A DNA stretch of 64,000 nucleotides from positions 186,001 through 250,000 of the forward strand of contig NZ_AFBG01000019.1 of the NCBI RefSeq assembly GCF_000204195.1. Reading direction: 5' to 3'. A program made the translations under genes and the position numbers. Under the pieces are notes generated by a model. The model was not told the origin of the DNA and ran no database searches. It saw only the letters and a program-made list of their open reading frames with translations. Positions within the stretch are counted from its first letter, which is position 1. The number at the start of each line of letters is the position of its first letter. This document shows, one piece after another, positions 7,808 through 17,480 of the stretch. Source of the DNA: Acidovorax radicis N35. Lineage in GTDB: Bacteria > Pseudomonadota > Gammaproteobacteria > Burkholderiales > Burkholderiaceae_C.

Positions 7808-7830
7808 CCCACCGCCTCCAACAATGCCCC

Positions 7831-9192
7831 ATGCCATCCTCCACGCACACCCGCATGACCGATAGCCTGGGTAACTCCGTCACGTTGCACGACCCGGCCA
7901 GCGCGGCTGCCCTGAACGACTTTGTGGAAGGCTTCATTGCGTGCGAAGCCCGCGCGGTGAATGTGCTGAACGCGGGAGCAGACACCAGCCCCATCGTGCA
8001 AGCCAGCTGCGCGGCGCTGCACATGTTTGCCGAATCGGCCGACGCCCCCCGCAACGCCCGCCCCTTCATCGACCAGGCGCTGGCCCACGCCCACCAGGCC
8101 AGCGAGCGCGAACAGCGTTTTGTGGCCGCCGTGGCCGCCTGGGTGGATGGCGACCTGCCCGGCGCCATCGCCCTGCACGAAGAACAGGCCCGCCTGCACC
8201 CCCGCGACCTGGCATCACTCAAGCTCGGCCAGTACCACCTGTTCAACCGGGGTGACTCACCCGGCATGCTGCGGCTGGCCCTGCAGGCCGTGCCCGCCGC
8301 TGCTGACGTGCCCTACCTGCACGGCATGCTCGCCTTTGGCTGGGAACAATGCCACCTGCTGGACCACGCCGAGGCGTCCGCCCGGCACGCCATCGCGCTG
8401 TGCCACAAGGAACCCTGGGCCCACCACGCGCTCGCGCATGTGATGCTGACCCAGGGCCGCATCCGCGAAGGCACAGACTTCATGGCCAGCGTGAGCGACA
8501 CCTGGACGGGGCTCAACTCCTTCATGGTCACGCACAACTGGTGGCACCAGGCGCTCTTCCTGCTGGAGCAAGACCGGCACGCCGAGGTACTGGCGCTCTA
8601 CGACGCGCAGGTGTGGGGCGTGGTCAAGGAGTACACGCAGGACCAGATCAACGCCGTGTCGCTGCTGGCGCGGCTGGAACTGGCAGGCGTCGGTGTCGGC
8701 CCCCGCTGGAGCGACGTGGCCGACCACCTCGCCCTGCGCCTGTCCGACCACGTGCTGCCCTTCCTCGACCTGCAATACCTCTACGGCCTGGCCCGCGCAG
8801 GCCGCACGGAGGCCGCGCGGACCCTGCTGCACAACATCGAAGCCCACGCCGCCACCCGCACCGAAGCGCACGAGCGCGCCGTGTGGCAGCAGGTGTGCGT
8901 GCCGGCCGCGCATGGCCTGCTCGCGCACGCGCAGGGCGACTGGGCCACGGCAGTACAGCAGTTGGGCATTGCATTGCCAAGGCTCATCGAGATCGGCGGC
9001 AGCCATGCGCAGCGCGACCTGTTCCACCAGATCTGGATGGATGCTCTGCAGCGCAACGGGCAGTGGGTGGCGGTGCAGAATGTGCTGCAGCCGATGGCGA
9101 ATGCGCAGCTGGAGTCGATGCGGTTGGCGAGGCAGGTGGGAGTGGTTAATGGGGTGTTGGGGTTGCCGGTGGAACAGCGCAGCCCACTTTAA
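7831..9192 (+). CDS. TPR-repeat protein, TTC38-like
   Basis: 453 aa from ATG 7831; ATG 7855 is an equally possible start and neither has a strong SD. No signal peptide. The protein is helical, with repeated TPR-like pairs (e.g. HEEQARLHPRDLASLKLGQY and the block LAFGWEQCHLLDHAEASARH). It resembles the bacterial relatives of tetratricopeptide repeat protein 38, whose biochemical role is unknown. Its last bases (9120-9192) have poorer codon bias and abut the lower-GC patch after only 4 nt. Confidence 0.8.
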   Translation: MPSSTHTRMTDSLGNSVTLHDPASAAALNDFVEGFIACEARAVNVLNAGADTSPIVQASCAALHMFAESADAPRNARPFIDQALAHAHQASEREQRFVAAVAAWVDGDLPGAIALHEEQARLHPRDLASLKLGQYHLFNRGDSPGMLRLALQAVPAAADVPYLHGMLAFGWEQCHLLDHAEASARHAIALCHKEPWAHHALAHVMLTQGRIREGTDFMASVSDTWTGLNSFMVTHNWWHQALFLLEQDRHAEVLALYDAQVWGVVKEYTQDQINAVSLLARLELAGVGVGPRWSDVADHLALRLSDHVLPFLDLQYLYGLARAGRTEAARTLLHNIEAHAATRTEAHERAVWQQVCVPAAHGLLAHAQGDWATAVQQLGIALPRLIEIGGSHAQRDLFHQIWMDALQRNGQWVAVQNVLQPMANAQLESMRLARQVGVVNGVLGLPVEQRSPL

Positions 9193-9196
9193 AACG

Positions 9197-9718
9197 ATGA
9201 CAACCATTGCTGAACTGCGCTCTCAATTGATCGCCGCCCAAAAGCTCACCGGGCAGTCTTCGTATGAGCGAAGGGCCCCGTCGCCCAAGGCTATTCCCGC
9301 GCTTTTGAAGGCGAAAACTGACATCCAGGCATTTATCCTGCTCCATGAAAGCGAGGCGCAAGCCCACCGGCTCCTGAGTACGGTGCAAGAGTGCCTGTTG
9401 AACTATCCGGGAGCACGAGCAAGTCTCGAACTAGCGATCCGGCTTTCTTCCCAACGAGAGGCCAAGGATCTGAAACGCTTGGCATTGCTGAGGGAGTATG
9501 AGAAAAAATGGACCGAGCTTCTCATCAGCCCAGTAGAGCTTGCAGGCCTTGGAAGCTTTCTTGAGCACGCGCTTTCCAAACAGTTGTGCAACCACTCTCT
9601 CGAACAGACCCGTTGTTGGTTGGCTACGCATTCGCCCACCAAGATCGATTCAAAGCTAAAAGCACTTCGCCACTGGGGCGGATACTGCGATTGCGAGGTC
9701 CTGCACAACGTAATATGA
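9197..9718 (+). CDS. DUF2695-type hypothetical protein
   Basis: 173 aa from ATG 9197, 4 nt after the previous stop. The C-terminus contains LRHWGGYCDCEVLHNV, the conserved cysteine-containing motif I associate with DUF2695. The N-terminal part is helical and of unknown function. Base composition is visibly lower in GC and codon use differs from the neighbours (many AAG/GAG mixed with TTG, CGA and AGC), which suggests relatively recent acquisition. Nothing in the sequence indicates a substrate or partner. Confidence 0.7.
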   Translation: MTTIAELRSQLIAAQKLTGQSSYERRAPSPKAIPALLKAKTDIQAFILLHESEAQAHRLLSTVQECLLNYPGARASLELAIRLSSQREAKDLKRLALLREYEKKWTELLISPVELAGLGSFLEHALSKQLCNHSLEQTRCWLATHSPTKIDSKLKALRHWGGYCDCEVLHNVI

Positions 9719-9759
9719 ATAGCCACCATTTGCATTGATGTCCATTCCGGGAGCTTTCC

Positions 9760-10005
9760 TTGGTCTTCTTCGCTCTGAATCGCTGCGGATACGAAAGTTT
9801 TTCCAAACTCAACATCTGGGACTTTCCGCTTTGGGTCGTTGATGGTGTTTTGTCGGCAGAAGAGCTCACAGCTCTCCGCATGCAAGGTATGGACGTTTCC
9901 GGGTTCAACTATGCTTTAGAGCTTGATGACATAGCTGGCATTCAAGACGCATTGGAAACCATCCGCGAGCACCATCCTGCACAAACCGTCTGGGTTAGCA
10001 ACTAA
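9760..10005 (+). CDS. Small hypothetical ORF, possibly N-terminally truncated
   Basis: 81 aa if TTG 9760 initiates; the frame is closed by a stop at 9736-9738, so there is no ATG option near the N-terminus. The translation reads like a real protein (FPLWVVDGVLSAEELTALRM then an acidic helix and HHPAQTVWVSN), but it starts abruptly inside what looks like a folded segment (VFFALNRCGYE). It lies 41 nt after the DUF2695 gene in the same lower-GC patch. It could be the surviving 3' portion of a larger gene. Confidence 0.4.
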   Translation: MVFFALNRCGYESFSKLNIWDFPLWVVDGVLSAEELTALRMQGMDVSGFNYALELDDIAGIQDALETIREHHPAQTVWVSN

Positions 10006-10047
10006 AGCGTCGCCAGCCCGCATACGGGGCATTTCAGGGGCGCGGCC

Positions 10048-10166
10048 CTGACCGCAAAAGCAGCTTCATCTGCACACACACCGGCTGCGCCGGCAAATCC
10101 GCCAGGTGCCGCACACCCCCCAGTCCAGCACCTCTACCGCATCGCCCACCACCCGCACACGGTGGC
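10048..10166 (-). pseudogene. Decayed 3' fragment of a histidine-phosphatase gene
   Basis: This stretch aligns by eye to the 3' end of the intact phosphatase gene (about 14561-14678), in the same orientation. About 85 of 97 compared positions match, including blocks CCGGCTGCGCCGG, GCCAGGTGCCGCACA and AGTCCAGCACCT. One base is missing relative to the intact gene in the C-run at about 10116-10121, which breaks the frame. The remnant ends just before the ABC ATPase stop at 10175. Confidence 0.75.
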
Positions 10167-10174
10167 GCCCCGCG

Positions 10175-11530
10175 TCAACGGCCAGCGTCCTCCGCACGCT
10201 CCTCATCCTTCGGCACAAACACCTTCTGCGTATTCGGATTGCAATCCATCAGCCCTGCATAGCGCCCCCAGGCGATCATGGTCTGGAAGGTTTTTTCCGG
10301 GTTGTCGTAGGGCAGCGCGCTGCCGATGTCCTTGATCACCCGGGAGGCATCCACTTCTTCATACTCCTTGAGCAGGGCAATGATGATGTGGAAGATGCGC
10401 AGCTTGAACACCTGCTCGGCGAAGATGGCGCGCCGTCCCTGGCGGTCGGCGGCCACAAATCGTCGGCCCAGCTCGGTGAAGCGGACCTCGTCCTTGGGCG
10501 TGTCGATCAGCTCCAGAATTTCTGCGGCCTTGACCAGGGCGATGGTCTCGCCGAACTCCTTGCCAATTTCGTCCGAGATGTCGTAGATGTTCGACAGCTC
10601 CGGCGCGTCGTGAAGAATGCTGAGCAGGCCCAGGATCTGCGCCACCGGCACCAGCGGGATGGACTCCATGCGGCCGCGTGCCCGCGAGATGGGGTGGCCC
10701 GCCACGGGGGTTTCGGCTGGAAGGTCGGGCAGCGTCATGGTGGTGATGGTTTCGTGGATGACCTTCACCAGCCGCTGGAACTCCGGGTCCCGGCTGTCGC
10801 GCGGGTAAGGCAGCGGGTTCTCCAGCACCAGGCCCAGCCTGCCAGGGTGTGGGAACAGCACCACGATGCGCGTGGCCATCTCCACCGCTTCCTCGATGTT
10901 GTGGGTGACCATGAAGACCGAACTCGGGCCCGTTCCCCGGCCCCGCCACAGTGTTATCAGCTCCTGGCGCAGGTTCTCTGCGGTGAGCACGTCCAGGGCG
11001 CTGAACGCCTCGTCCAGGCACAGCAGCCGGGGCTGAGACACCAGCGCACGGGCAATGCCCACACGCTGGCGCATGCCGCCCGAAAGTTCACGCGGATAGG
11101 CCGCGTGGTGGTTGCCCAGGCCAATCAACTCGATGGCCCGCCCCACCGCCGCATCGCGCTCGGCCCGGCTTGTGCGGTGCGCCATCAGGCCCACCGCCAC
11201 GTTCTGCGCCACCGTGAGCCAGGGGTAGAGCGCAAAGGTCTGGAACACCACCGAGGCATCGGAGTTGACGCCGTGCAGGGGCCGGCCATCGGCCAGCACA
11301 CGGCCGGAGCTGGGCTCGATCAGGCCTGTGAGGCAGCGCAGGATGGTCGATTTACCCGAACCCGACTGCCCCAGCAGGGCCAGCATTTCGCCCTCGCGGA
11401 TGTCCAGGTCGATGTTGTCGAGCACCTTGAGCTCGTGCTCCCCCGCGATGGTGAAGGACTTGTTGACCGCACACAGCTGGGCGATGGGTGCTGCGGCGTT
11501 GTGGGTGGGCACGGAGTTCGTCATCATCAT
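10175..11530 (-). CDS. Nitrate/sulfonate-type ABC transporter ATPase with AAA-associated C-terminal domain
   Basis: 451 aa. The N-terminal ABC domain has Walker A GQSGSGKS (residues 54-61), signature LSGGMRQR (149-156) and Walker B LLCLDEAFSALD (169-180), the form typical of the nitrate/sulfonate/taurine group. A linker (about 255-290) leads to a C-terminal AAA-associated domain (about 290-435; SRARGRMESIPLVPVAQ, then a helical region), as in ABC-AAA_assoc proteins. The start is the first of three consecutive ATG codons, 2 nt after the permease stop. The last residues are Glu/Arg rich. Substrate unknown. Confidence 0.9.
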   Translation of the reverse strand: MMMTNSVPTHNAAAPIAQLCAVNKSFTIAGEHELKVLDNIDLDIREGEMLALLGQSGSGKSTILRCLTGLIEPSSGRVLADGRPLHGVNSDASVVFQTFALYPWLTVAQNVAVGLMAHRTSRAERDAAVGRAIELIGLGNHHAAYPRELSGGMRQRVGIARALVSQPRLLCLDEAFSALDVLTAENLRQELITLWRGRGTGPSSVFMVTHNIEEAVEMATRIVVLFPHPGRLGLVLENPLPYPRDSRDPEFQRLVKVIHETITTMTLPDLPAETPVAGHPISRARGRMESIPLVPVAQILGLLSILHDAPELSNIYDISDEIGKEFGETIALVKAAEILELIDTPKDEVRFTELGRRFVAADRQGRRAIFAEQVFKLRIFHIIIALLKEYEEVDASRVIKDIGSALPYDNPEKTFQTMIAWGRYAGLMDCNPNTQKVFVPKDEERAEDAGR

Positions 11531-11532
11531 GT

Positions 11533-13296
11533 TCAGTCCAGGCGAAAGCGGCGTTCTGCAAACGCATACAGGCGCCGCCAGATCAGTTTGTTCATCAGCA
11601 AAACGAAGACCGACATCACCGCGATGCTGGCGATGATGAGCGGCGTGTTGCCCGACTTCGTGGCCTGCGCAATGAAGGCACCCAGGCCATCGGCCTGCAA
11701 GGTCGTATCGCCCCAGGTGGCGAGTTCGGCGACGATGCTGGCGTTCCACGCACCGCCTGCGGCCGTGCACGCCCCGGTGACCCAGAAAGGAAAGATCGCG
11801 GGCAGGATCAGGGTGCGCCACAACGCCCAGTTGTGCAGGCCATACACGCGCGCGGCCTCCTTCAGGTCGTTGGGGATGGCCATGGCGCCCGCGATCACGT
11901 TGAACAGGATGTACCACTGCGTGCCCATGGCAATCAGCAGGATGCTGCCCCAGTTCATCGGGGTCTGCGTGGCGACAAAGAAGCCCACCACGATGGGAAA
12001 CGTCATGTTCACGGGGAACGACGCGCCAATCTGCGCGAGGGGCTGCGCCCACTTCGCCACCCGTGGGTGGAACCCGATCCACACACCCACCGGGGTCCAG
12101 ACCAGCGTGGCGAGCACGGTCATGGCCAGCACGCGCAGCAGGGTCAGAAAGCCCAGCCCCACGATGTGGGCGACCATGCCCAGCGTGACCGCACCGTGCA
12201 GCGCAGAGATGGCAGCGATCAGGCCCCGCAATACCTCGAAGCCCAGCCACGCTGCGGCAGCCAGGCCCAGGGCGCGCAGGGGCCATGGGTTGCCTTTTCG
12301 GAAAGAGCTGCCCCTGCCAGGCCGCTGGCGCAGGAACAGGCCCTGCAACACGTCTGTGAGTGGCCGCCACACCGCCCGGCCGAGCCAGCTGAACACATAG
12401 GCCCGGCGCAGCAGGCCGTACACCCACGAGGTGGCTGGCGCAGCAGATTCCGTCAACTCCACTTTGAACTTGTCGGCCCAGGCCAGCAGGGGGCGCCACA
12501 CCAGCTGGTCGCTGACCAGGATCAACAACAGCATGGCCAGCACCGCCCAGAGCGCGGCCTGGCGGTCGCCCAGCTCGATGGCCTGCGCCATGTACGAGCC
12601 CAGGCCTGGCAGCTGGATGTCCTTGTTCATCACGCTGATGGCTTCGCTCTGCGCCACAAAGAACCACCCGCCACCGAAGGACATCATCGAGTTCCAGATC
12701 AGGCTGTGCGTGGAGGCTGGCAGTTCCAGGGTGCGAAATCGCTGCCAGCGGCTCAGGCCGTAGTTCGACGCGGCCTCCTGCATGTCGCCGGGGATCGTGA
12801 CCATCGAGTGGTAGAAACCAAAGGCCATGTTCCACACCTGCCCCGTGAAGATCGCGAAGATGGCAGCACATTCCACCCCCAGCAGGCTGCCGGGAAACAG
12901 CGCCATGAATCCCGCCACGGTGGCCGACAGAAAGCCCAGCACGGGCACCGACTGCAGCACGTCCAGCACCGGCAGGATGACGGCGCGGGCCGCGCGGCTC
13001 TTGGCCGCGAGGTAGCCCACCGCAATCGCAAAGAACAGCGAAAAGCCGAAGGCGATCCACATGCGCAGCAGCGTGCGCCCGGCGTAGTAGGGGATCTGGC
13101 TGGGCGACATGTCGAGCGGGGGCATGCTCGCCGCATCGAAGTGCACCAGCATGCCCTTGCCAAAGTGCAAGGCGCTCCACAGCAGGCCCATCAAGGCCAG
13201 CAGAACCAGGCCGTCCACCCAGCCAAAACCTCGCGGGCTTTCGTTGACGGCGAGTTGGGGCGCGGTGTTTTTCAGGTTGCGGTGCATGGCCAACAT
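11533..13296 (-). CDS. Double-length ABC transporter permease (nitrate/sulfonate type, two fused domains)
   Basis: 587 aa with two binding-protein-dependent permease domains in tandem. Each ends in a docking loop: EAASNYGLSRWQRFRTLELP in the first half and KEAARVYGLHNWALWRTLIL in the second. About 12 membrane segments in all. One chain therefore supplies the whole membrane channel. The start at 13296 overlaps the preceding stop (TGATG); ATG 13287 is an alternative. Together with the AAA-associated ATPase this forms a complete translocator, but no substrate-binding protein gene accompanies it. Confidence 0.88.
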   Translation of the reverse strand: MLAMHRNLKNTAPQLAVNESPRGFGWVDGLVLLALMGLLWSALHFGKGMLVHFDAASMPPLDMSPSQIPYYAGRTLLRMWIAFGFSLFFAIAVGYLAAKSRAARAVILPVLDVLQSVPVLGFLSATVAGFMALFPGSLLGVECAAIFAIFTGQVWNMAFGFYHSMVTIPGDMQEAASNYGLSRWQRFRTLELPASTHSLIWNSMMSFGGGWFFVAQSEAISVMNKDIQLPGLGSYMAQAIELGDRQAALWAVLAMLLLILVSDQLVWRPLLAWADKFKVELTESAAPATSWVYGLLRRAYVFSWLGRAVWRPLTDVLQGLFLRQRPGRGSSFRKGNPWPLRALGLAAAAWLGFEVLRGLIAAISALHGAVTLGMVAHIVGLGFLTLLRVLAMTVLATLVWTPVGVWIGFHPRVAKWAQPLAQIGASFPVNMTFPIVVGFFVATQTPMNWGSILLIAMGTQWYILFNVIAGAMAIPNDLKEAARVYGLHNWALWRTLILPAIFPFWVTGACTAAGGAWNASIVAELATWGDTTLQADGLGAFIAQATKSGNTPLIIASIAVMSVFVLLMNKLIWRRLYAFAERRFRLD

Positions 13297-14000
13297 CACC
13301 GCTGGAAGGCCCAGTTGAGCCCCACGGTCCACCAGGCGGGCGCACCGCCTGCAACACCCCGCGCCTGGCTCAGGTCCACGCTGAGCGCGTCGGTCACTGC
13401 ATAGCGCGCGCCCAGGCGCCAGAAGCCGGCGTCGCTCTCACGAAAGCGTTCTGCCACCAGCGACCAATGCGGCGTGGCGGCCCACTCCAGGGCTGCGCCG
13501 CCGCGCGGGAGATCGGGCCCTTGGCGGCGGAAATCACGGCCCAGGTTCATATGGACGGCCAGGCCCTCGGCCGGTTGCCAGGTCACGGGGAACACAATCG
13601 CGCTGCCAGCAAACCGTGGCCGGGCGTCCTGCCAGGCGGCCGAGACCACGACACCCACACTGAGCGATTCGGTCAGCGGCGCGGCCCATTTGACCTGCGG
13701 GCCTCCACTCACTGCTGCATCACTGCCAGACCAGCGCGTGCGGTCCAGATTCAGGCCAACCTCCAGCGGGCCGATCCGGCAGGCCGAGCCCAGGTGCACC
13801 AGCGTGCGGCCGCCCCCGCGCTCCCGGTCTGCCCAGGTTTCAACCTGGCACTGGCCGGGCTCCAGGATGGCGGCGTCGTCCACCGCGTGGTGGCCGCCCG
13901 CTGCATGGGCTTCCTGCAGGGCAAAACCCAGCACGGCAGCTGCAGCGCCCAAGTGCCGACGCGTTGGCAGGCCGGGGCGCACGGATCGCACTGCGCGCAT
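13296..14000 (-). CDS. Exported beta-strand-rich protein of unknown function (possible outer-membrane barrel)
   Basis: 234 aa from ATG 14000, chosen because it gives a normal signal peptide (LGAAAAVLGFALQEAHA, cleavage before AGGHH). An ATG at 14069 would add 23 residues. The mature part has alternating amphipathic strands (e.g. LEVGLNLDRTRW, LSVGVVVSAAW, WSLVAERFRES) and ends in the aromatic WTVGLNWAFQR, suggesting a beta-barrel. It is translationally coupled to the permease (TGATG overlap), so it may serve the same transport system, perhaps as an outer-membrane component. I do not recognise a named family. Confidence 0.6.
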   Translation of the reverse strand: MRAVRSVRPGLPTRRHLGAAAAVLGFALQEAHAAGGHHAVDDAAILEPGQCQVETWADRERGGGRTLVHLGSACRIGPLEVGLNLDRTRWSGSDAAVSGGPQVKWAAPLTESLSVGVVVSAAWQDARPRFAGSAIVFPVTWQPAEGLAVHMNLGRDFRRQGPDLPRGGAALEWAATPHWSLVAERFRESDAGFWRLGARYAVTDALSVDLSQARGVAGGAPAWWTVGLNWAFQR

Positions 14001-14558
14001 TGTGGGGAGGAACGGGCCGCGCGTGCAGCCTGCTGCGGGCACACGGCGTGTGGGTTCTTTTCGGCTCATGGGACTCTTTCTGGCTTCCTTGGCCTTGTGG
14101 CTTTCGGGGGGCTTTGAAAACAGCCGGGCGTGGCGCAGCAACGCGCCGCTGTTGCGGCCCGCAAGCTTCTGCATTGGAAAGATGGGGTGTGACGAGCACG
14201 CGGCAATGCGGCCCGGTTTGTGGTGAAACGTTAAGAAATGGCTTGCCACAAAGGGGCAAACACATCGCTGCGGCCGTGCGGCACACAGCGCGGACGCAGG
14301 GCGCTACGCAGCCGAATGTGCCGCACCTGCAAGGGCGCTCTTCACACCTGATCTACAACTGGCACTGTCCACGCGCGCGGCTCCGAAGTGACGACGGGGC
14401 GAATATTGCACCGCACAAAACCGAGCGTCAAGCCAGCCTCTGCAATCTTTACGAAATCTATATACGGAGCGAGGCGGTTCCCATTTTTTTGATGCGCGGG
14501 GCACGGCAGCGACGGAACCTGCCAAGCAAAAGCGCCGTCAAGCCACGCTGCCCCGGTT
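14001..14558. other. Long intergenic region upstream of the ABC module
   Basis: About 560 bp between the exported-protein start and the phosphatase stop. The part at about 14230-14530 is less GC-rich and contains AT stretches (AATCTATATACGGAGCG and a T7 run near 14486), so a promoter for the leftward ABC operon is plausible. No convincing gene, tRNA or palindrome was found. Open frames here have no family resemblance. Part may be residue of the rearrangement that duplicated the phosphatase 3' end. Confidence 0.4.
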
Positions 14559-15230
14559 TCACCGCACCAGCAGCTTCGTCTGGTCGTACACCGGCTGCGC
14601 CGGCAGATCGGCCAGGTGCCGCACATCGGCCCAGTCCAGCACCTCCACGGCATCGCCATCCACCCGCACGCGGTTCAGGCCAGCGTTGGGGATGTCGCTC
14701 TGGCGGGGGCCATCCAGGCCCGTGCCACGGGCTGTGCGCCAGATCATGTCGAGCACGCCGCCGTGGGTCACGACCATGACCTTCTGGCCCTGGTACTGCT
14801 GCGCGATGCGGCGCACGGCGTCCATCACGCGGGTGTGGAACTGGCGGGTGGTTTCGCCCCCGGGCATGCCGTAGTCGGCTTCAAAGCGCAGCCATCGCTC
14901 CCACGCATCGGCGTGGTCCGCCTTGACGTCGTCCACCCGCTTGCCGTCCACGATGCCGAAGTTTTGCTCGCGCAGGCTGCTGTCGGTGAGGGTGTCGATG
15001 TGCAGTTGCGGAAACAGCACCTGCAGGCTGGGGCTGGCGGTCTGCTGCGTGCGGATGAGGTCGCTGCAGACCAGGTGGTCTACCACCAGCTGGTCGGCTG
15101 CCAGGCGTTCGGCCAGGCGGCGGGCCTGTTCGTGGCCTGTGGCGTTGAGGGGCACGTCCACATGGCCTTGAAAGCGCAGTTCGCGGTTCCAGTCGGTCTC
15201 TCCGTGGCGGATCAGGATCAGTTCGGTCAT
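14559..15230 (-). CDS. Histidine phosphatase family protein (phosphoglycerate-mutase-like)
   Basis: 223 aa. The catalytic LIRHGETDWN motif lies at residues 5-14; further signature parts are CSDLIRTQQTA, the acid-containing LREQNFGIVDG, and the second histidine in VVTHGGVLDM. Start 15230 is supported by GGAG seven bases upstream. It is a two-histidine phosphatase; whether it acts on a sugar phosphate, a nucleotide or a cobamide intermediate cannot be told. A decayed copy of its 3' end lies about 4.5 kb to the left, and a family-A repeat lies about 45 nt upstream of the start. Confidence 0.88.
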   Translation of the reverse strand: MTELILIRHGETDWNRELRFQGHVDVPLNATGHEQARRLAERLAADQLVVDHLVCSDLIRTQQTASPSLQVLFPQLHIDTLTDSSLREQNFGIVDGKRVDDVKADHADAWERWLRFEADYGMPGGETTRQFHTRVMDAVRRIAQQYQGQKVMVVTHGGVLDMIWRTARGTGLDGPRQSDIPNAGLNRVRVDGDAVEVLDWADVRHLADLPAQPVYDQTKLLVR

Positions 15231-15267
15231 GCGCTCCATTATCGAATGTATACACACTATTGCAAGA

Positions 15268-15323
15268 CTTTTTGCTTGCTAGCGCTTATGTACAAAGCGC
15301 TTATAGCTATGATTTTTATAACA
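15268..15323 (+). repeat. Repeat family A, copy 2
   Basis: CTAGCGCTTATGTAC, AAAGCGCTT, then AGCTATGATTTTTATAAC. The palindromic core and the downstream AGCTAT element are both present. It lies between the phosphatase start and the end of the small exported protein gene. Confidence 0.8.
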
Positions 15324-15366
15324 ACCGAACGCAGGCAGACAGGCACGTGGTGCCGGGCGCTCTCTG

Positions 15367-15591
15367 CTACCGCATGGGCACGATGAGCACTTTGCGGCGC
15401 GGCCGGCAGCCGGGACCGTCGTAGGCGGCGCTGTCGCGCTGCCAGCCCTGGCCGGGGGAGGTTTGTGCACAGACCCGCGCACCGTCCACCGTGCTGCGCC
15501 AGTAGTACCAGGGCGCGGGGGCGGCCTGCACCAGCGGCGTCAGCGGGGTCAGCAGGGCCAGGGCGAACAGGAAACGGGAAACAACGGGCAT
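15367..15591 (-). CDS. Small exported hypothetical protein
   Basis: 74 aa with a clear signal peptide (MPVVSRFLFALALLTPLTPL, cleavage near VQA-AP). The mature ~50 residues contain WYYWRSTVDG and two cysteines (Cys42 and Cys62, in VCAQT and PGCRP) that could form a disulphide. I do not recognise a family. It lies downstream of the DUF429 gene on the same strand with a 36-nt gap, so the two may be co-transcribed. Confidence 0.6.
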   Translation of the reverse strand: MPVVSRFLFALALLTPLTPLVQAAPAPWYYWRSTVDGARVCAQTSPGQGWQRDSAAYDGPGCRPRRKVLIVPMR

Positions 15592-15627: not shown

Positions 15628-16512
15628 CTACGCACCGTGTGCCGGGCCGATGCCTTGAAAAGCGGGGGCATTGGCCGTCACGATCCAGCCCTCCAGCGGG
15701 TCCAGCCCCGGTGGCAGGCCATACAGCGCGTCGCCGCCCTCGGCATGGCGCCGCTCGGCCCAGGCAGCTTGCACCAGGCACAACACGGCATCCAGGCTGT
15801 CGCCGCTGGCGTCGTCCACGAGGGCATCGCGCTGGGCGTGGCTGAGCGCCAGGCGCAGGCCCAAGCGCGTCTGGCCGATCTCCAGCGCGTTCACCAGGTC
15901 CTTGCGGGCGATAAGTCGCTCGGGGGTCTGCTTGGCACGGTCATCGCTCTTGTAGCTGCGCCGCTGCAGCACCTCACGCGCCAACAGACCGGGGTAGGCC
16001 TCCAGCCCCACGCGGCGGGGGTCGCCATCGTGCAGGCCCGGCACATGCACACCGGCGTCCAGCAGCAATGGCACACCCGCGTGCAGCATGTACGCCACGG
16101 GCGGGTTCACCCATTTCATCGAGGGGCTGGAGCCTGCGGGGCCGTCGGTGCCGCGGTGGGAAAATTTGCCACCCACCGGGCGGGCATCGCAGAACGCTGC
16201 GAACTGGTCGCGGATCTGCGCGCGGCTGAGGCTGCGGTAGTGTTGCATGCACGCCAGCCAGTCGGTGGGCCAACCCAACGCCTGCACCAGCTCGCGCGGC
16301 AGGCCAAAAGGCAGGTCAAAGCCGCCCACCCAGTCGCCGGGCTGAGACAGCCATCGGCCGAACGCGGCCAGGGTATCGAACCGCTCCAGCGCAGCGAGCT
16401 GTACGCGTGCGCCCCGGCGTTGGCCCAGAGCCAGCACGATGGGTTTGCGCCGCGTGGGGCTGCTGGAGAAGTCGCAGCCCAGCAGCAGGGTTTGTGGTGC
16501 GGCGGCCGTCAT
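15628..16512 (-). CDS. DUF429 domain-containing protein
   Basis: 294 aa. The N-terminus LLLGCDFSSSPTRRKPIVLA and the internal WVGGFDLPFGLP show the acidic residues of the DUF429 family, which has an RNase H-like fold and is often called a putative nuclease. The C-terminal region includes DALVDDASGDSLDAVLCL, with further acidic residues expected at such an active site. Start 16512 overlaps the EamA stop by 4 nt (ATGA), so it is translationally coupled to the transporter. Function unproven. Confidence 0.8.
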   Translation of the reverse strand: MTAAAPQTLLLGCDFSSSPTRRKPIVLALGQRRGARVQLAALERFDTLAAFGRWLSQPGDWVGGFDLPFGLPRELVQALGWPTDWLACMQHYRSLSRAQIRDQFAAFCDARPVGGKFSHRGTDGPAGSSPSMKWVNPPVAYMLHAGVPLLLDAGVHVPGLHDGDPRRVGLEAYPGLLAREVLQRRSYKSDDRAKQTPERLIARKDLVNALEIGQTRLGLRLALSHAQRDALVDDASGDSLDAVLCLVQAAWAERRHAEGGDALYGLPPGLDPLEGWIVTANAPAFQGIGPAHGA

Positions 16513-17390
16513 CCCAAGGCCAACGCCGTGACGCCTGCCGCAATGCACAGCGCGCCAAAAATGCGCGCCATGCGGTCACCCTCGCCCAGCAGGTGCCCGC
16601 CGATGAGGGCGGCAAACAGCATGGACACCTCGCGCGCCGGGGCCACGTGCGACAAGGGTGCCTGCTGCATGGCATACAGCACCAGCACATAGGCCACGGG
16701 GCTGACCACCGCCACGGCCAGCGCAAAACGCCACTGCGCCAGCCACAGCGTGCGGGCCGTGGGCAGGTCGCGCAGCACCACCGGCGCCAGCAGGCCCACA
16801 CGCACAAAGTTGCCCATGTAGTCCACCAGAATGGGCGACATCAGCAGAAACTTGACCGCATAGCCGTCGACCACCGTGTAGCTGGCAATGAAGGCCCCCG
16901 TGAGCAGGCCGTACAACATGCCTTTGTGCACCCGCGCCCGTGCGGCAGGGTCGTGCGCGGCGCGCAGCAGGCCCGGGCCGCCCGCAATCAGGAACACGCC
17001 CCCCACCACGCCCACGATGCCCAAGGCACCCAGCGCCGAGATCTGCTCACCCAGCAGCGTGATGGCCACCAGCGACGACAACAGCGGCCCCGAGCCGCGC
17101 GCCAGCGGGTAGACCACGGTGAGGTCCGCCACACGGTAGCCGCGCAGCAGGATGACGAAGTACGCCACATGCAGCAGCCCGCTGGCGGCGACAAAACCCC
17201 ACTCCACCGCGCCCCACTGCGGCACGGCGTCGCGCCCCAGGTACCAGCCCAGCGGCGCCCAGACGACCATCATGATCACCGAGGTGAAGAACGCAAACCG
17301 CGAGTCCCCCCCGGCCTTCTTGGCCACGATGTTCCAGCACGCGTGGATGAGGCCGGCGAGGATGATGAGGGCGAAGGCGGCGAAGGTCAC
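16509..17390 (-). CDS. EamA/DMT-family transporter
   Basis: 293 aa, about ten hydrophobic segments in two halves, as in the drug/metabolite transporter superfamily. Visible features are an N-terminal HACWNIVAKKA, the VVYPLARGSGPLLSS loop in the first half and LLFAALIGGHLLGE-like sequence near the end. Substrate unknown. It is followed by the overlapping DUF429 gene. The hairpin with a T-run at 17419-17450 separates it from the folE-BLUF unit upstream. Confidence 0.85.
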   Translation of the reverse strand: MTFAAFALIILAGLIHACWNIVAKKAGGDSRFAFFTSVIMMVVWAPLGWYLGRDAVPQWGAVEWGFVAASGLLHVAYFVILLRGYRVADLTVVYPLARGSGPLLSSLVAITLLGEQISALGALGIVGVVGGVFLIAGGPGLLRAAHDPAARARVHKGMLYGLLTGAFIASYTVVDGYAVKFLLMSPILVDYMGNFVRVGLLAPVVLRDLPTARTLWLAQWRFALAVAVVSPVAYVLVLYAMQQAPLSHVAPAREVSMLFAALIGGHLLGEGDRMARIFGALCIAAGVTALALG

Positions 17391-17418
17391 GGGTCAGAAA
17401 GAGAGAGGGCTTGAATGC

Positions 17419-17450
17419 AAAAAGCCGCAGCGCCATGGCGACTGCGGCTT
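17419..17450 (-). terminator. Rho-independent terminator after the folE-BLUF unit
   Basis: Reading the minus strand, AAGCCGCAG, an 11-nt loop, then CTGCGGCTT runs into a T5 tract (complement of 17419-17423). It lies about 190 bp past the BLUF stop and just upstream of the EamA start, where it would insulate the two units. Confidence 0.8.
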
Positions 17451-17480
17451 GATGTGGCCTAGAGAGTTTATCGATTCAAG

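Follow-up and report, generated by a model that had tools for sequence, protein, structure and literature searches.

Turnover of cargo genes by recombination in flanking core genes has been documented (PMC5635113), and integration events with one homologous and one illegitimate end have been described (PMC3240628); both statements refer to the sections of these papers used here, as does that on the Salmonella mgtCBR leader, which carries a short open reading frame (ORF) in front of magnesium-related genes (PMC3641672). We compared these systems with a variable chromosomal slot of Acidovorax radicis N35, contained in a window of 64,000 nucleotides on contig C12 of the 5.5-Mb genome. The slot is the interval between a TPR-type gene and a histidine phosphatase gene, and in the window it harbours an ATP-binding cassette (ABC) transport module bounded by two direct copies of the phosphatase 3' end. 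The slot resembles the core-gene hotspots treated in the sections used (PMC5635113) in its fixed neighbours and genome-specific cargo and in that the Pfam scan detected no mobility family among the slot proteins of the window that were scanned; it differs in that the comparison extends across species of a genus and in that two slots contain integron integrase remnants and two others IS5 or IS256 transposases. One homologous and one illegitimate joint, as in the homology-facilitated illegitimate recombination considered in PMC3240628 (sections used), would give the structure of the window, with the difference that the process is read here from anatomy alone and not from parental sequences. The start of the transport operon is likened to the mgtCBR leader (PMC3641672, sections used) by the short ORF in the leader and not by alignment. 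The module shares its domain composition with duplicated-permease ABC systems that include an ATPase with an AAA-associated domain, but no solute-binding protein was detected among the slot proteins scanned.

The direct repeat was confirmed. Its left copy, termed remnant in the following, is a degenerate version of the phosphatase 3' end at positions 10049 to 10175 of the window (minus strand), identified by direct-repeat and whole-genome searches and by comparison of columns, whereas its counterpart is the end of the intact phosphatase gene (14559-15257, minus strand; PF00300, E 3.9e-55) that forms the right border of the slot. The two sequences are identical in 105 of 127 columns and differ in 22, plus one deleted base, which amounts to 83% over the full length; the earlier note had counted 85 matches among about 97 comparable bases, a value that holds for the better part of the repeat. 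The alignment comprises the pieces D2 (10051-10115 and 14561-14625, 86%) and D3 (10119-10175 and 14630-14686, 82%) in the same orientation, and their register bears out the previously noted one-base deletion in the left copy, which lies between them. A query with region 14559-14700 against the whole genome yielded two places: the query region and the remnant (E 9.2e-30, 85%, query bases 3-116), with 40 of 137 first-look candidates scored, and a plasmid collection contained no match to the remnant. The stop codon is missing from the left copy, the plus strand reading TGA at 10049-10051 as opposed to TCA at 14559-14561, and the C-terminal residues of the phosphatase are still readable on the minus strand of this copy, downstream of the ATPase stop codon. 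The homology ends at 10174/10175 and coincides there with the stop codon of the ATPase gene (10175-10177), which marks the joint; the C-terminal tail of the ATPase varies among relatives. Between the two copies, all on the minus strand, are located an intact ABC ATPase with a C-terminal AAA-associated domain (10175-11530; PF00005 (ABC_tran) and PF09821 (AAA_assoc_C)), a duplicated ABC permease (11533-13287; two stretches of PF00528 (BPD_transp_1)) and an exported protein (13296-14069). The Pfam scan agreed with the gene content deduced earlier from the sequence, the exported protein being without a named family (neither Pfam nor NCBIfam gave a match at E 0.01). The scar itself is ordinary.

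The gap between the TPR gene and the phosphatase is a slot with variable cargo. Among 47 sampled genomes of the genus (G-codes; L-codes denote fetched loci), 42 including that of the window contain a phosphatase ortholog of at least 74% identity, which is incomplete in G021 and distributed over two contigs in G033. The comparison covered 40 loci around this ortholog, some of them cut by contig ends, with the window genome's own locus and G021 left out, and the search for remnants covered 34 slots (33 and that of the window). The usual gene order is amidase, small protein, TPR protein, variable interval, phosphatase, small ORF, DUF429, EamA, BLUF, folE and cls. As is typical of a recombination hotspot, the flanking genes are kept (amidase in 39, TPR gene in 35 and DUF429 in 33 of the 40 loci) and the cargo differs from genome to genome: slots of more than 350 bases contain 69 ORFs, called mechanically and at least 80 amino acids long, 16 of which belong to clusters of three or four, the remainder occurring in pairs or alone. 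Slot lengths range from 50 to 5,958 bases, with the exception of a negative value for G037 and a misreading for G018, where the TPR end was read on into the cargo. The empty version of the slot sought by the earlier note is approximated by G036, one of the nearest genomes according to rpoB, and by G023, in which 62 and 50 bases, respectively, separate the TPR gene from the phosphatase. A remnant of the phosphatase 3' end is present in one of the 34 slots, that of the window; the 33 others contain no full-length copy of the phosphatase end, and four of them show short matches, of 23 to 38 bases among the matches listed. Duplicated TPR 3' ends were rejected as candidates, since the matches in G019, G014 and G010 all originated from the G018 query, whose TPR end ran into cargo; a 62-base TPR-end match with which the G034 slot begins was not taken as a duplication either.

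In the window, the left border of the slot is the TPR-type gene (7825-9192, plus strand; two TPR models, both under their cut-offs). It is followed on the same strand by a DUF2695 cargo gene (9197-9718; PF10905, E 1.3e-13) and, within the stretch 9719-10005, by a small ORF with a TTG start (9760-10005), perhaps a gene fragment, for which neither a Pfam family nor a match in the 40 genus loci was obtained at E 0.01. The DUF2695 gene has a homologue (81%) in G027 only among these loci, and the arrangement is seen there directly: the gene starts four bases past the TPR gene, as in the window, and ends about 80 bases before the phosphatase. The ABC permease is found at high identity in two of the 47 genomes, that of the window and G039 (86-87%), while G025 and G045 possess 51% relatives located elsewhere. 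In G039, the ATPase and permease genes occupy the same slot and adjoin the phosphatase, without the remnant and without the exported gene; the stretch between the ABC operon and the phosphatase is common to both genomes (77% over 136 bases), and the ABC DNA is 74-90% identical per 300-base window where matched, with similar values in the flanks.

On a slight balance of probability, the remnant is the right border of one slot version that was fused to another version, which is also the simplest and best account of the locus. Version one would have consisted of the TPR gene, the DUF2695 gene, the small ORF and the phosphatase, whose 3' end became the remnant, and version two of the ABC operon and the phosphatase. 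One end of the incoming DNA would have recombined by homology in a shared flanking gene. The other end would have been linked non-homologously immediately beyond the stop codon of the ATPase gene, at a point some 125 bases into the phosphatase copy, and the truncated copy would have decayed afterwards. The non-homologous joint is visible at 10175; the homologous one, like the fusion, its direction and the mechanism of homology-facilitated illegitimate recombination, is inferred from the anatomy of the locus. A phosphatase end is to be expected at the place of the remnant because the DUF2695 gene sits directly between the TPR gene and the phosphatase in G027. An insertion of the ABC genes alone probably did not make the repeat, since G039 carries the ATPase and permease genes beside the phosphatase without a remnant. 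The earlier note had proposed a duplicative insertion or a recombination: the differing cargo among relatives and the nearly empty slots of G036 and G023 speak for the latter, and G039 speaks against a duplicative insertion by the ABC module. It had also regarded a separate occurrence of remnant and module in relatives as evidence to the contrary; the module without the remnant is seen in G039, and the remnant without the module nowhere.

The ancestry of the two sides leans weakly in the same direction. A comparison of rpoB with its flanks, for which 30 loci were returned (match in 41 of the 47 genomes; none in G030), placed the window genome closest to G036, G019, G037 and G018 (94.4-94.5%), with G039 at 90.8%. 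The intact phosphatase 3' end is nearest to G036 and G037. The remnant joins G030, G038, G019 and G018 in a tree of 128 columns (support 92/76), and the TPR 3' end (8670-9192) is nearest by tree path to the same four genomes. Since the TPR 3' end and the remnant share their nearest genomes, the left cargo and the remnant may represent one slot version. The genomes nearest by rpoB are also those nearest to the phosphatase, which would make the left cargo the newcomer, but the neighbouring genes are mosaic too.

A number of observations weigh against this account. About half of the 22 differences of the remnant are private to it, and no microhomology was shown at the joint at 10175. The remnant belongs to no starred tree set, G040 and G009 are as near to it by path as G030, and by plain identity it is equally near to G011, G009, G017 and G030 (84.3%), its own phosphatase reaching 82.7%. 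In the weak 128-column tree, a clade of the remnant and its own phosphatase was not rejected (p-AU 0.325), which leaves room for a simple duplication. The contrast between the two sides is limited because the 5' part of the phosphatase is likewise near to G019, G018 and G030, and sliding identities revealed a region that is mosaic throughout. G027 and G039, which display the two arrangements, are both outside the nearest genomes by rpoB, and the left cargo with the remnant and without the ABC genes was seen in no genome. Finally, integron integrase remnants or transposases in some slots indicate that other mechanisms act at this place; apart from the integrases described below, an IS5-type transposase is located in the slot of G011 (L047:12448-13431, plus strand) and an IS256-type transposase in that of G015 (L056:5090-6313, minus strand).

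An alternative close to the idea of the earlier note is that a single event brought in the ABC operon together with a phosphatase 3' end on the same molecule; one crossover, or an insertion-duplication, within the final 125 bases would leave one full and one truncated phosphatase. We judge this to be unlikely, though it deserves consideration: the anatomy of a full gene, cargo and a truncated 3' end in the same orientation fits, and so does the non-rejected clade of the remnant and its own phosphatase, but G039 shows the ABC genes and the shared upstream region beside the phosphatase in the absence of a remnant, and the tree neighbours of the remnant are those of the TPR 3' end. A tandem duplication of the phosphatase and ABC region with subsequent loss of most of the left phosphatase would equally yield a partial direct copy in the same orientation. 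It is improbable, as it requires two events and as cargo shared with G027, and no ABC sequence, lies to the left of the remnant.

At least some members of the genus have, or once had, a chromosomal integron in this slot, since broken integron integrases are present in the slots of G026 (L052:10953-11723; TIGR02249, E 2.9e-70, under cut-off) and G043 (L050:11050-11720; E 1.3e-25, a 95-amino-acid piece). Both are encoded directly past the TPR gene on the minus strand, opposite to the TPR gene and most cargo ORFs, and attC-like spacers or hairpins are found beside cargo ORFs near them, in G043 between single-gene cargo ORFs. The G/TT step is used by integron integrases, and the joint of the window falls where other phosphatase copies read CGCG/TT. 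A recombination by such an integrase at a secondary site inside the phosphatase gene has been considered as the origin of the joint, to which we assign a similarly small probability as to the tandem duplication. The integrase search of the 40 loci and the window detected only the two cases in G026 and G043 (2 of 34 slots) and none in the window at E 0.001, and the slot of the window is devoid of attC-like pairs, so that it lacks what marks a chromosomal integron in G043 and G026. Over all slots, attC-like pairs were barely above shuffles (4 and 1 on the two strands versus 2.5 and 1.8; the flanks, 314 kb in all, served as control and gave 0 and 1). With a strict attC search the count was 4 versus 1.3 in shuffles, with none in the slot of the window, and GTT is a common triplet.

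Site-specific islands are usually recognised by a gene 3' end that recurs on the distal side of the insert, and the phosphatase 3' end might have served as an attachment site. This explanation is very improbable and largely refuted, as no integrase is present among the window slot proteins scanned, the two copies are only 83-85% alike and none of the 33 other slots has the full-length copy of the phosphatase end that an att-site or target duplication would leave. Chance similarity or an assembly error, in favour of which no point was found, can be given practically no weight, considering the genome-wide E value of the left copy, the collinearity of the remnant with the phosphatase C-terminus and two copies that are too different to confuse an assembly and lie inside one contig of 888 kb.

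To the right of the slot, the EamA region (16420-17470) is in parts up to 95-97% identical to G005, G014, G015 and G027, compared with 84-90% to G036/G037. This region appears to be a recent exchange, because identity to the latter two is lower although rpoB places them among those closest to the window genome.

Upstream of the exported gene and thus at the start of the operon, an element at 14304-14431 (minus strand) was detected that is common to other genera of the Burkholderiaceae. It includes a sigma-70-like promoter site (14402-14431, minus strand; TTGACG, 18 nucleotides, AATATT), for which one consensus match was found and 0.1 were expected from shuffles, and a conserved upstream reading frame of 22 codons plus stop with a GTG start (14304-14372, minus strand) that emerged from a multi-locus alignment; a Shine-Dalgarno-like GGAG is also part of the element. 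A search with the L241 copy at E 1e-3 in 399 genomes of the family, the sample also used for the exported protein, gave 32 places in 30 genomes, for which 30 loci were stored. The alignment contains 26 loci including that of the window, L275, L278 and L280 (without the motif) and L277 (with a longer frame) being left out. Codons 1, 3 and 5 (GTG, AGT and AGT) are the same in all 26 loci and codons 2 and 4 in 25 of them; with the stop included, the frames comprise 21 to 24 codons, and gaps inside the frame are multiples of three. This invariance is partly built in, because similarity to the L241 copy and presence of the motif were the criteria by which the loci had been selected. Past codon 5, differences are distributed almost evenly over the codon positions (475, 562 and 584 in 1724 codon comparisons), so that the leader peptide may matter little there. 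In the long leaders of L266, L269, L273 and L276, a second similar stretch with HRLAHAPHPQLS-like residues was noticed by eye downstream of the leader frame, which is perhaps a further leader element.

The genes behind the leader form a recurrent set. In 21 of the 25 other leader loci, a conserved leader precedes a gene for MgtC, an MgtA-type protein (magnesium P-type ATPase), an Nramp-type protein or an MgtE_N-like protein within about 1.5 kb downstream; four of these loci supplied the reference proteins and two have an MgtE_N-like gene only. The other four loci contain either a relative of the exported protein only (two) or neither (two). Pfam cut-offs were passed by MgtC, by the P-type ATPase domains and by the Nramp protein of L259, which is closely related to the Nramp reference, and were narrowly missed by the MgtE_N match; the NCBIfam matches of these magnesium-type pieces are under their cut-offs, and the ATPase and Nramp pieces are cut by locus ends. 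The exported protein has relatives in 68 of the 399 family genomes (window genome counted) and no match in the 40 genus loci, G039 included; in three leader loci, a magnesium-type P-type ATPase follows its relative. On a Variovorax replicon the leader stands before a magnesium-type ATPase; the plasmid collection gave one Variovorax match to the L241 leader and none to the leader from L276. The placement of the leader before such genes suggests a putative magnesium-type regulon.

The exact leader pattern was present in three of 165 genomes of the order, that of the window and two of the same family, and in none of 161 genomes of other families. Within the genus, the exact motif occurs in one of 47 genomes and with at most one mismatch in 34, but a backwards control gave 15 of 47. 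The one-mismatch motif before the magnesium-type ATPase of G017 (L262) is also found at G005:C8:226984, G027:C1:4328027 and G033:C219:9465. In G039 the leader region is shared and the upstream frame is not kept, and a search of 80 loci from other genera revealed no leader before the ABC genes, the two matches with at most two mismatches being without leader context. Rfam returned no match up to E 1 in 9000-15400 and, where 16 of the 30 leader loci were scanned, nothing beyond two tRNAs and four matches below threshold. RNAalifold predicted five pairs, none of them changed on both sides, the 5' part of the alignment being poorly aligned; pairing of the GGAG with a stretch past the stop codon reached -10.6 versus a shuffle average of -8.9 kcal/mol, the window copy being weaker than its shuffles. 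No description of this leader was recognised among the papers listed by the literature searches; in the part of a Burkholderia sRNA paper used here, mgtC2 is named only as the neighbour of another candidate's homologue.

With respect to the ABC module, a magnesium-type or other divalent-cation role is inferred. In a metagenome-assembled genome (MAG) of Rhizobacter (L164, 50-7241), genes for an outer-membrane-like protein (assigned by eye), the duplicated permease, the ATPase and a P-type ATPase with 49% identity to the magnesium-type reference are arranged consecutively on a single strand, and an Nramp-type gene precedes the permease and ATPase genes in a MAG of Anaerolineales (L224). A relative of one of the four magnesium-type references is present within the stretch covered in five of the 80 ABC loci, with about 30% identity in two of them. 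NCBIfam contributed no model at its cut-off among the 25 of 187 matches listed for the ATPase or the 10 for the permease. Taken together, the predicted new leader, composed of the promoter and a GTG frame of 20-23 codons with five near-invariant first codons, might act as a translation-coupled ion sensor and the ABC module as a transporter of magnesium or another divalent cation, which we propose tentatively and with somewhat less than even confidence.

The scar provides a readable example of cargo stacking in a variable chromosome slot, whereas the larger value of the locus lies at the start of the operon. If the proposal is true, the leader would connect magnesium-type transport genes with a so far uncharacterised ABC transporter of the duplicated-permease kind and thereby provide the latter with a testable function, and it would represent a candidate ion-responsive leader outside those known from enterobacteria.

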